DNA from: Lacipirellulaceae bacterium
GTDB taxonomy: Bacteria > Planctomycetota > Planctomycetia > Pirellulales > Lacipirellulaceae
Assembly: GCA_040218535.1 (NCBI GenBank)
Contig: JAVJRG010000005.1
Span: forward strand, 1-64,000
Direction of reading: 5' to 3'
Length of the DNA: 64,000 nt
Numbering within the stretch: position 1 is the first letter of the stretch; each line of letters opens with the position of its first letter. The notes under the pieces are model-generated. The model worked only from the letters and a program-made list of their open reading frames with translations. It ran no database searches and had not been told where the DNA came from. Of the stretch, positions 47,280 to 54,330 are shown piece by piece. Both the position numbers and the translations under genes were made by a program.

Positions 47280-47855
47280 ATGCTACATCTTCAATCCGAA
47301 ACCGACGCTCGCTGGTTCGCCCAAGTCGATGCCCACTTGGACGAAATCCTCATCGACCACGCCCACTGCGAAAAGAAAGCCGCCGGCACGGCAATGAATC
47401 TCATTTTCCACTACGTGGATAATCGCGAGCTTTGCCAGGAAATGACCGAGATCGTCAACGAAGAGCTCGAACACTTTCACATGGTGCTCGACCTGCTTGA
47501 GAAGAAGGACATTCCGTTCCGCAGGCTCAAGCCAAGTCAGTATGGCCGCAAACTCAACGACTTGGTCAGCAAGCAGGAACCGCAACGGGCCGTTGATCGG
47601 CTGCTCGTTGCGGGGCTCATCGAAGCACGAAGTTGCGAGCGCTTCCACGCCCTCGCGCAACATGTCGATGACGAAGAACTGGCCAACTTCTACGCCAGCC
47701 TGTTCGAATCGGAAGCGCGGCACCACACCACGTACACGCGGCTCGCCAAGCATTTCGCGCCTGAGGAAGAAGTCATGGCAAGGCTCGACGAACTGGCAGC
47801 ACTGGAGTCAGAGATTATCTCCGCGGGCGAACCCCTAGCGCGGATGCACAGCTAG
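47280..47855 (+). CDS. miaE: tRNA-(ms2io6A37) hydroxylase
   Basis: MiaE is a diiron monooxygenase that hydroxylates the isopentenyl group of ms2i6A at position 37 of tRNAs reading UNN codons. The 191-residue helical protein has two ExxH metal motifs (E62-H65 in NEELEHFHMV and E145-H148 in ESEARHHT) with E31 and E115 as likely further ligands, plus the family pattern LIDHAHCEKKAAGTAMNLIF. The ATG comes six bases after TATAAT (47268-47273), so the mRNA may be leaderless; no matching -35 box is evident. The modification also needs miaA and miaB, which are not in this window. Confidence 0.95.
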   Translation: MLHLQSETDARWFAQVDAHLDEILIDHAHCEKKAAGTAMNLIFHYVDNRELCQEMTEIVNEELEHFHMVLDLLEKKDIPFRRLKPSQYGRKLNDLVSKQEPQRAVDRLLVAGLIEARSCERFHALAQHVDDEELANFYASLFESEARHHTTYTRLAKHFAPEEEVMARLDELAALESEIISAGEPLARMHS

Positions 47856-47863
47856 CAGCACAC

Positions 47864-47890
47864 CTAGCCGCGGTGCTACGCACCGCCGGA
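47864..47890 (+). repeat. CTAGCCGCGGTGC palindromic repeat
   Basis: CTAGCC, GCGGTGC, TAC, GCACCGC, CGGA, eight bases after the miaE stop. The element at 53501-53527 is the same except that one stem pair changes from G-C to A-T, a compensated change that keeps the hairpin. Confidence 0.75.
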
Positions 47891-48710: not shown

Positions 48711-49808
48711 ATGTCCAATTCCACCTCGCTGAGAATCGCTGTCATCGCCGGTGATGGCATCGGCCCCGAAGTCGTCGGCACCAGTCTCGAAGTCCTGAAA
48801 GCGACCGCCGCGGCGAACGATTTTGTCTACGAAACAACCGATTTCCCCTTCTCGGCGAAGCACTTTCTCGAGAGCGGGCACATCCTCGACGACGACGATG
48901 TCGCGAAGCTTAGGGAGTTCGACGCCATCCTCCTCGGGGCCGTCGGCGGGCTGCCCAACGACCCTCGCCTTGCGGGCGGCGTGATCGAGAAAGGAATTTT
49001 GCTAAAACTTCGCTTCGACCTCGATCAGTACATCAATCTCCGCCCCGTGCAGCTCTACCCGGGTATCGATACACCGCTGAAAGACAAAACGAGCGAGCAC
49101 ATCGATTTCATCTGCGTCCGCGAGAACACTGAGGACCTCTACTGCGGCCTCGGCGGGATTGTTCGTAAAGGAACCGATCAGGAAGTCGCCAATCAAACGA
49201 TGGTCGCTACGCGTTTCGGTGCCGAACGCTGCATCCGCTACGCCTTCGAACTGGCCCGCACGCGTCCCCGTAAGCACCTAACGCTGGTCCATAAGACCAA
49301 CGTCCTCAACTTCGCCGGCGACACTTGGCATCGCACATTCGAAGACGTTGCCCAGGATTACTCCGACGTCGAAACCGGCTACCACCATGTCGACGCCTGT
49401 TGCATGTTCATGGTCGCCAAGCCCGAAGTGTACGACACGATCGTCGTGCCCAACATGTTCGGCGACATCATCACCGACCTGGGCGCAGCCATCGCCGGCG
49501 GCATGGGCATCGCTTCGAGCGGTAACCTCAACCCCGACGGAACGGCGCCCAGCATGTTCGAACCAGTCCACGGCAGCGCCCCCGACATCGCCGGCCAAAA
49601 CGTGGCCAACCCCATCGCCACGATCGATTCCCTCGGCCTGCTGCTCCGCGAAACGGGCCGCATCAAAGAAAACGCCGCCGCCATCAAGTGCGGTGAGCAA
49701 ATCGGCGCCGCCGTGAAAAAGGTGACGCCGAAGTTTGCCGGGAAGAGTTTAGACCGGAGTGGGTTTGGGACGAATGAGATTGGGCAGATGGTGGTTGAGG
49801 CGTTGTAA
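48711..49808 (+). CDS. leuB: 3-isopropylmalate dehydrogenase-like beta-decarboxylating dehydrogenase
   Basis: A 365-residue enzyme of the isocitrate/isopropylmalate dehydrogenase family. It has the N-terminal IAVIAGDGIGPEVV, the substrate loop LLKLRFDLDQYINLRP, the catalytic Tyr/Lys region (RENTEDLYCGLGGIVRKG and HKTNVLNFAGDTWH), the metal Asp site (NMFGDIITDLGAAIAGGMG) and the NAD-type dinucleotide loop (EPVHGSAPDIAGQNVANPIA). LRFDLDQYINLRP is typical of LeuB, which oxidises and decarboxylates 3-isopropylmalate in leucine synthesis. The RENTED segment is closer to isocitrate or tartrate enzymes, so substrate specificity is not certain. No other leucine gene is nearby. Confidence 0.82.
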   Translation: MSNSTSLRIAVIAGDGIGPEVVGTSLEVLKATAAANDFVYETTDFPFSAKHFLESGHILDDDDVAKLREFDAILLGAVGGLPNDPRLAGGVIEKGILLKLRFDLDQYINLRPVQLYPGIDTPLKDKTSEHIDFICVRENTEDLYCGLGGIVRKGTDQEVANQTMVATRFGAERCIRYAFELARTRPRKHLTLVHKTNVLNFAGDTWHRTFEDVAQDYSDVETGYHHVDACCMFMVAKPEVYDTIVVPNMFGDIITDLGAAIAGGMGIASSGNLNPDGTAPSMFEPVHGSAPDIAGQNVANPIATIDSLGLLLRETGRIKENAAAIKCGEQIGAAVKKVTPKFAGKSLDRSGFGTNEIGQMVVEAL

Positions 49809-49839: not shown

Positions 49840-49866
49840 CTAGCCGGCGAGCTACGCCTCGCCCGG
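49840..49866 (+). repeat. CTAGCC-GGCGAG palindromic repeat
   Basis: CTAGCC, GGCGAG, CTACG, CCTCGCC, CGG, 31 bp after the leuB-like stop. It matches the element at 34640-34666 except at one compensated stem pair. Confidence 0.7.
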
Positions 49867-52584: not shown

Positions 52585-54330
52585 ATGTGGAAGCGACTTT
52601 TGCACGCTAGAATCGTGTCGGCTTGCAAAAGTGCAAAACCTAACCGTCATGCCCAACGGGAGCAAAACCTGATTCGAACCCGCGACATCACCGAGATCAC
52701 CTGCCTACCGCAGTTCCTCACGGCGGAACGATTGCCCGCCGGTGATGAAACTGCGCTCAGCACGATCTGCGCTGGCCAACTCAGTTCAGTGAGTTGGAAC
52801 CAAGTCGCCCAGGATCTCGTGCGCTGGGTCCGCGGACTCGAACACGCTGGTGTGAAACGTGGCGACTACGTGGCACTCGTCGCAGAGAACTCCTACCCCT
52901 GGATTCTTGCCGACCTATCGCTGCAAGCAATTGGAGCTGTGAGCGTTCCCCTGCACAGCTCTCTCTCATTCGCCCAATATCGCGACCTGATTCGACATTC
53001 CGAGGCGAAGTTCCTGCTGGCAGACACGCCGACGCGAGCTTCTGAAATCGGCGAAGAAGCCGAGGTCGAGAATTGCACGTTCCAAGAGATTGAGGCCTCA
53101 ACAGAGCAAGGCACGAGCGAGCTTCAGGAGTACACCTGCCAACGTAATGCGAACGACTTGGCGACAATCCTCTACACTTCCGGCACAACCGGCCAACCCC
53201 GCGGCGTCATGCTCTCGTTCGGCAACCTCGTGAGCAATGCGGTTGCCGTGAGCGACGCGGTGGCTTCAAACGAGCAAGAAACGCGTCTCGCCTTCCTCCC
53301 CTTCTCGCACATCTACGCCCGCACGTGCGACATCGGGAGTTGGCTCTATCGCGGCACGCACCTTGTGCTGGCCGAGTCGCGCGAAACAATCCTCCGCGAT
53401 TGCCAACTTTGCCAACCAACCACTCTCAACGGCGTTCCCTACTTTTACCAAAAGGTTGCCGATGGTATTCGCGCAAAAGGAAATGAAGCCGAGAAGGATC
53501 CTAGCCGCAGTGCTACGCACTGCCGGAGCGACGCATTGAGAACTGCCTTTGGAGGCAAAATCCGCCGCCTTAGTTGTGGTGGAGCCGGTGTGGCTCCAGA
53601 GACTGAACGATTCTACGAACAGTGCGGCCTGCCGATCCTCTCAGGCTACGGCCTCACCGAAGCTTCGCCGGTGATTACCGCCACAGCGAAAGACGAATAC
53701 AAAGCTGGTACGGTGGGAAAGCCAATCCCTGGCGTCGACTTGAAGATTGACAGCGATGGTGAACTGCTCGTCCGCTCGCCCGGCGTGATGCAAGGTTACT
53801 GGCGCGACGAAGCGGCCACCGCGGAAGTGCTCCGTGACGGCTGGCTCCACACGGGCGACCTCGCCGAATGGGCCGGCGAGAATTTGCGGATCATTGGCCG
53901 CAAAAAAGAAATCCTGGTGCTCAACACGGGAAAGAAAGTCGTGCCCACGGCGATTGAGCAGCAGCTCACCGGCTCGCCAATCATCGAACAGGCCTGCGTA
54001 CTCGGCAACGGCAGAAAATACCTCACCGCGATCCTAGTGCCCACCCCTGAACGCCTGAAAGCAGAAATCCGCCGCCAACGCCTCTGGGTTTGGTCAAAAC
54101 GCCGCGCGGTAACGCATCCGAAAATCCGCGATTGGTTCCGACAAGAAATCGACCGCTGCCTCGCCCAACTGGCACATCACGAGCAAGTTGCTAAGTTCGT
54201 AATCATCCCCCGCGGTTTCTCAGTGGAGCTCGGCGAGCTGACCCCGAAACTAAGTTTGCGACGAAATGTTATCGAAAAGAACCTGCACAAGGAAATCGAG
54301 TCCATGTATTTATCAACACAAAATGAATAG
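52585..54330 (+). CDS. AMP-forming long-chain acyl-CoA ligase
   Basis: A 581-residue adenylate-forming enzyme that activates a fatty acid with ATP and transfers it to CoA. It has the P-loop-type motif ILYTSGTTGQPRGVML, FLPFSHIYARTCDIG, the SGYGLTEASPVIT motif, the hinge TGDLAEWAGENLRIIGRKKE and a C-terminal lid with KLSLRRNVIEKN. All core motifs are intact. Between YFYQKVADGIRAKGNEAEK and LRTAFGGKIRRL there is an insert (about DPSRSATHCRSD) encoded by a palindromic intergenic-type repeat at 53501-53527. The start is an ATG; an upstream leader of 60 poorly conserved residues may be partly non-coding. Chain-length preference is unknown. Confidence 0.9.
   Translation: MWKRLLHARIVSACKSAKPNRHAQREQNLIRTRDITEITCLPQFLTAERLPAGDETALSTICAGQLSSVSWNQVAQDLVRWVRGLEHAGVKRGDYVALVAENSYPWILADLSLQAIGAVSVPLHSSLSFAQYRDLIRHSEAKFLLADTPTRASEIGEEAEVENCTFQEIEASTEQGTSELQEYTCQRNANDLATILYTSGTTGQPRGVMLSFGNLVSNAVAVSDAVASNEQETRLAFLPFSHIYARTCDIGSWLYRGTHLVLAESRETILRDCQLCQPTTLNGVPYFYQKVADGIRAKGNEAEKDPSRSATHCRSDALRTAFGGKIRRLSCGGAGVAPETERFYEQCGLPILSGYGLTEASPVITATAKDEYKAGTVGKPIPGVDLKIDSDGELLVRSPGVMQGYWRDEAATAEVLRDGWLHTGDLAEWAGENLRIIGRKKEILVLNTGKKVVPTAIEQQLTGSPIIEQACVLGNGRKYLTAILVPTPERLKAEIRRQRLWVWSKRRAVTHPKIRDWFRQEIDRCLAQLAHHEQVAKFVIIPRGFSVELGELTPKLSLRRNVIEKNLHKEIESMYLSTQNE
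53501..53527 (+). repeat. Palindromic repeat inserted in frame in the acyl-CoA ligase gene
   Basis: CTAGCC, GCAGTGC, TAC, GCACTGC, CGGA. Identical in layout to the intergenic element at 47864-47890 with one compensated base pair. Its 27 bp keep the reading frame and add nine residues between the substrate-binding region and the LRTAFGGKIRRL block. Confidence 0.8.

Follow-up and report, generated by a model that had tools for sequence, protein, structure and literature searches.

An in-frame REP in an acyl-CoA ligase-type gene of two genomes from one genus

An acyl-CoA ligase-type gene carries, within its reading frame, a copy of a short dispersed palindrome of the REP type, and a counterpart is found at the same site and in the same frame in a second genome of the genus, which makes it most likely that the insertion happened before the two species diverged. 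The gene lies in the window, i.e., the whole stretch of 64,000 nucleotides that was analyzed (contig C5:1-64000 of the source genome, G000, which comprises 5.36 Mb in 13 contigs), and all comparisons within the genus are between two genomes, G000 and the one other examined, G001. The reading that we favor, with a probability of about 0.78, is an ancestral in-frame REP insertion into a variable loop of the ligase, tolerated and kept in both species. A REP copy would have entered the length-variable loop in frame in the common ancestor of G000 and G001, a RAYT-type transposase may have moved it as single-stranded DNA, and it would have added some 9-11 residues without serious harm. It would have been retained because its removal needs a precise in-frame deletion, and the ligase REP is probably a tolerated passenger kept across the species split. 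The coordinates of the main features are given in Table 1.

Table 1. Features of the window and of the two genomes (positions without prefix are those of the window)
Feature	Coordinates	Strand	Remarks
Acyl-CoA ligase-type gene (AMP-binding enzyme)	52585..54330	+	ORF of 581 aa, Pfam matches
Intragenic REP copy, TAGCCGCAGTGCTACGCACTGCCGG	53502..53526	+	7-bp stem and 2 outer pairs across a bulged C; loop TAC
Nine REP codons, P S R S A T H C R	53500..53526	+	read-through of the REP in the ligase frame
Intergenic REP copy, same family as the ligase REP	47865..47889	+	pattern match
Palindrome of a second class, TAGCCGGCGAGCTACGCCTCGCCCG	49841..49865		just 3′ of an ORF ending at 49808
Inverted REP doublets, G000	C8:137874/137960; C12:560005/560049; C12:894990/895050; C12:1356024/1356111		starts 44-87 bp apart
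REP-flanked transposase gene, G000	C12:446059-446628		locus L027
REP-flanked transposase gene, G001	C1:5658057-5658633		locus L231
Gene of unknown function with in-frame REP, G000	L148:967-1965	-	DLRFVEPRL, REP read on the opposite strand
Orthologue of the preceding gene, G001	L154:961-2088	-	YRRAVGSRL, REP read on the opposite strand
Gene with in-frame REP, G001	L142:1236-1811	+	IAAGQRPAG in a linker
VWA-domain protein gene with in-frame REP, G001	L072:1246-2226	+	PAVRSTATA in a linker

The ligase gene and its palindrome

The ligase ORF is uninterrupted, its true start possibly lying 3′ of the first ATG, and its product matches the Pfam families AMP-binding (residues 54-406, E 2.3e-70) and AMP-binding_C_3 (residues 442-577, E 8.6e-14); the open frame and the presence of both domains rule out a pseudogene. 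The 27-mers at 53501-53527 (CTAGCCGCAGTGCTACGCACTGCCGGA) and 47864-47890 (CTAGCCGCGGTGCTACGCACCGCCGGA) differ at two positions that form one stem pair (G-C to A-T), which confirms the statement of the initial annotation that the first is a copy of the second but for one compensated pair. The intergenic copy separates two convergent ORFs, whose 3′ ends are at 47855 (+) and 47910 (-). When up to three mismatches to the family pattern were allowed, these two copies were the sole matches in the window and no match occurred in 100 shuffles, while the core, at the same tolerance, was found at 19 places in G000 and its reversed control at none.

A homologue search of 59 genomes, G000 included, yielded 44 matches in 42 genomes, 30 of which were compared (the window, G001, and 28 loci from other genera). 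The REP-derived segment is absent in 28/28 of the homologues examined from other genera, and the loose REP pattern has no match in the loop of any of them, the weak matches in the homologues L045 and L054 lying far from it. The loop that contains the REP is 39 residues long in the window and 47 in G001, vs. a median of 28 (range 18-46) in the 28 homologues; the window loop exceeds this median by about 11 residues, of which nine codons are REP. A chance palindrome in coding DNA has negligible probability in view of the shuffles, the reversed controls and the 28 homologues, and no support was found for it. As judged from the letters of the gene, the ligase copy appears to be an intragenic, translated REP, with the frame kept and the gene otherwise intact. 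The earlier description of a mobile-type palindrome that lies in frame in an intact gene and adds about nine residues is therefore borne out, and the alignment with homologues that it called for turned up neither a palindrome-free homologue with the same residues nor any sign of gene decay.

The loop itself varies widely among relatives. In the homologue L038 the loop, with 46 residues and an unrelated sequence, is even longer than that of the window, and the ligase loop therefore gains residues without REPs too. A scan of genome contigs for the ligase gave 40 loci, the best of which reaches 49% identity in an uncultured Planctomycetaceae MAG, and none of the 40, as far as seen, belongs to the same genus. 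Sixteen homologues drawn from these loci, 15 of them at 30-33% identity, were aligned with the ligase to build a structural model from 17 sequences (mean pLDDT 84.3), the best fold matches of which are adenylate-forming enzymes. The REP residues 306-314 are predicted to lie between a helix at 285-302 and the start of a helix at 310-321, in a region where block 301-310 has a mean pLDDT of 64, and the majority consensus of the structure alignment has a long insertion at the REP place. This predicted position in a loop fits with tolerance of extra residues.

The repeat family, its candidate transposase and other coding copies

The wider pattern TAGCCGC NNNN CTACG NNNN GCCGG, with 2 mismatches, matches 40 places in G000 and 68 in G001, vs. 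5 and 4 in the reversed controls, so that part of these matches are due to chance or to another class. Filtering for at least 6/7 stem pairs and conserved ends left 31 distinct REP copies in G000, one of which (minus strand, position 2473 of L019/L141) fits poorly and is unlikely to be a true member, and 61 in G001, with 22 and 35 stem variants, respectively; these are dispersed, imperfect palindromes within the 20-40 bp expected of REPs. Stem pairs 3-6 occur as G-C, A-T, T-A and C-G over the two sets, in which the filter biases upward the share of paired stems but not the variety of pairs. The loop is TAC in 27/31 copies of G000 and AAC in 42/61 of G001. The base preceding the tag is variable (CTAG 10, ATAG 6 and GTAG 5 of the 31 in G000), and a GTAG tag is found in only 5/31 and 3/61 copies, so that the conserved 5′ GTAG of the GTAG superfamily is missing; the family is therefore filed as REP in the wide sense and not as a GTAG family. 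Four doublets in G000 consist of two inverted REPs a short distance apart, as in REPINs, and the ligase copy, being a singlet, is not a REPIN. Matches to TAGCCGCNGTGCTACGCACNGCCGG with at most 2 mismatches were found in 8/43 genomes of the family. An intergenic REP that both genomes have 5′ of a gene identified by eye as groES-like (L015/L069) has a T-A stem pair in G000 and a G-C pair in G001. The window also holds a palindrome of a second class (Table 1), with more copies in both genomes.

Matches to Y1_Tnp number 11 in G000 and 14 in G001. Within 1.5 kb either side of these matches, this REP is present on both sides of only one per genome (C12:446269 and C1:5658236), and one further match per genome is accompanied by a lone REP-like site (L026, L229). 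The pair flanked on both sides consists of orthologues (58% identity over 152 residues), and both genomes contain an IS200-like HUH transposase gene flanked by REPs, the arrangement that defines a RAYT or REPtron. The transposase is divergent: it scores 31.6 bits against Y1_Tnp (cut-off 23), with positions 19-88 of 121 (70) covered. Its HUH motif reads HVH in G000 and HAH in G001, and a tyrosine in VYLP is common to the two proteins, in which neither YI..NP nor YV..EQ was seen by eye. No transposase gene flanked by AAC-loop copies was found among the 14 Y1_Tnp matches in G001, where AAC predominates. By analogy with the available text of the REPtron literature (PMC8266576, PMC3733652), a RAYT-type transposase would mobilize these REPs. 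The flanked genes occupy the same syntenic place in opposite orientation in the two species, as though an inversion had taken place between the flanking inverted REPs.

In-frame REPs also occur in three further genes of the genus, in variable linkers in every case. On the one hand, the orthologues L148 and L154 both carry one at nearly the same point, but the two REPs are of different subtypes (8/25 differences, TAC vs. AAC loop), and, the linker being hypervariable, it is uncertain whether the site is exactly the same. No REP was found in 20 further homologues from 19 genomes of the family; 3-mismatch pattern matches exist in L178, L179 and L190, the last in the same linker but with only 3/7 stem positions paired. 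On the other hand, two genes have their REP in G001 alone of the pair: the G000 orthologue of L142 (60% identity) is without it, as are, by REP match, 19 aligned homologues, and the G000 homologue of the VWA-domain protein (61%) has PAV only at that point, the rest missing.

Altogether, at least 2/31 REPs in G000 and at least 4/61 in G001 are judged intragenic, and the family is mostly extragenic; these counts are lower bounds because codon score was the sole criterion for ORFs that have no known domain. The calls were based on the same best frame on both flanks, an open frame, and homologues. The codon-score test (32 + 60 copies, under a slightly different filter) is a weak instrument, since it failed to pick out the ligase copy of either genome and, at its threshold, flagged two rows in G000 and none in G001, one of the two (L019, 2473) having an in-frame stop and being no clear family member. 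Same-frame rows that were left out comprise L002 (no 100-aa ORF), L149 and L164 (ORFs of 108 and 110 aa), L073 (no 90-aa ORF), L134 (stop in the REP), and L003 and L062 (transposase locus). The REPs of L013 (rplU) and L019 (Mpt_N) were not counted as intragenic, given that the domains start 3′ of them, at residues 54 and 53, and L061, where the REP lies early in a 305-aa ORF that matches no family over cut-off, was left out likewise. The 165-191 aa ORFs over L005, L008, L010 and L014 have no Pfam match and were left uncounted; the 120-aa length cut-off used in the available text of PMC3733652 would count them.

Probable descent and retention of the ligase copy

The ligase of G001 (67% amino-acid identity, in a syntenic neighborhood) encodes PGRSATHSR from CCTGGCCGTAGTGCTACGCACAGCCGG at the same place and in the same frame and orientation. 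The two in-gene REPs differ at 3/25 bases, compared with a mean of 4.84 between the genomes for pairs with a TAC loop. Many other copies resemble the window copy more closely than the in-gene copy of G001 does, namely 10/30 of the others in G000 and 3/61 in G001, so the case for shared descent rests on position, not on sequence; position favors descent over replacement, and sequence does not decide. We infer arrival by insertion, neutrality, and ancestry as opposed to repeated insertion.

Separate acquisition of the REP at the same spot, or its overwriting by conversion with other REPs, is rather unlikely. The many closer copies speak for it, as do the different subtypes in frame at nearly the same place in L148 and L154, and a precedent is found in recB, where X. 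campestris and X. oryzae have different REPs at about the same site according to the available text of PMC3733652. Yet the two ligase copies agree in codon phase, orientation and point of insertion, and both have a TAC loop and a GTGC stem even though AAC predominates in G001. A further reading, which we consider unlikely, is that REP sites, coding ones included, are fixed addresses whose occupant is replaced in place by the dominant subtype of the genome. TAC in G000 faces AAC in G001 at four shared sites, three intergenic (L145/L144, L150/L162 and L008/L120, of which two are oppositely oriented and one is anchored on a single side) and one coding (L148/L154), whereas the ligase site, the transposase flanks and L013/L075 are shared without a subtype switch. 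If true, intragenic REPs would be live targets of transposase or conversion that rewrite coding sequence.

Selection at the level of nucleic acid, by which the hairpin would be kept as an mRNA hairpin or a transposase site and would constrain codon choice in the ligase stretch, appears distinctly improbable, but it would account for an excess of likeness in the nine REP codons. Between G000 and G001, 24/27 of their nucleotides are identical vs. 65.5% over all aligned codons, a total matched by 14/549 nine-codon windows. Third positions are identical in 8/9 codons vs. a proportion of 0.407 (binomial P = 0.0043; equaled in 5/549 windows), and identical residues are encoded by identical codons in 6/7 cases vs. 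146/349 (P = 0.024). This excess could reflect constraint, conversion or chance. It comes from one locus, small numbers and a single species pair, conversion could produce it as well, REP copies being alike anyway, and the G001 stem, with one A-A mismatch and one wobble, has a folding z-score of -0.68, vs. -1.95 for the window copy. Such third-position conservation is nonetheless above expectation for a neutral passenger and counts against ancestral insertion with passive retention, as do the closer REPs elsewhere, the scarcity of GTAG, the divergent transposase, the reliance on two genomes, and the long loop of L038. It is very improbable that the REP-encoded peptide was selected for enzyme function: it was kept in both species with 7/9 residues identical, vs. 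66% for the rest of the ligase, but the loop varies in length and sequence across the 28 other homologues, model confidence in it is low, and the REPs of the three other genes likewise fall in variable linkers.

Comparison with known repeats

The initial annotation had considered in-frame palindromes rare outside Rickettsia, which is overstated because intragenic REPs have already been published: the available text of Di Nocera, De Gregorio and Rocco (2013; PMC3733652) lists REPs inside genes of several species, and it names REP families in R. baltica. The GTAG REPs described there share with the present family a short dispersed palindrome that is mostly intergenic but in some copies lies entirely within a gene, doublets whose members face opposite ways, and a tyrosine transposase gene flanked by repeats. 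They differ in that the present family does not conserve the first base of its tag, the numbered families being compared by description only. As reported in the accessible part of Bertels and Rainey (2011; PMC3116915), 14 16-mers overlap genes in P. fluorescens SBW25, and REPINs and RAYTs resemble the present system in their inverted REP doublets, transposase genes with adjoining REPs, and few repeats overlapping genes; by contrast, the ligase copy is a singlet.

The bulged REPs of TnpA-REP group 2, as presented in the portion of Corneloup (2021; PMC8266576) available to us, likewise form an imperfect, irregular hairpin after a short unpaired tag and go with a protein that has an HUH motif, here HVH in the candidate transposase. 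The tyrosine motifs given in the available text of PMC6006769 (YI..NP types, and YV..EQ of the planctomycete-rich class 3) are not visible in that candidate, and the same text mentions REP insertion in some proteins of one transposase subclass. Rickettsia palindromic elements are similar in that they have inserted in frame into ORFs whose products are likely functional, as summarized in the accessible part of PMC3733652. RPE-4 and RPE-6 have a CGTC tag, and CGTC repeats are described there without an associated transposase gene; RPE-1 is longer than the ligase REP. All three were compared by description only. Subtype replacement at shared intragenic sites was not found in the available parts of the literature searched, except for the recB remark in PMC3733652, which is possibly one such case.

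The ligase REP is a clear new case of a phenomenon already reported in other bacteria. What it offers is an in-frame REP that can be positioned with respect to the separation of two species, other genera having the site empty and the same genomes containing a REP-flanked transposase gene, together with a second gene (L148/L154) in which the two species carry REPs of distinct subtypes almost at the same point. The entry of REPs into coding DNA and their possible rewriting in place thus become directly comparable within one small genus.
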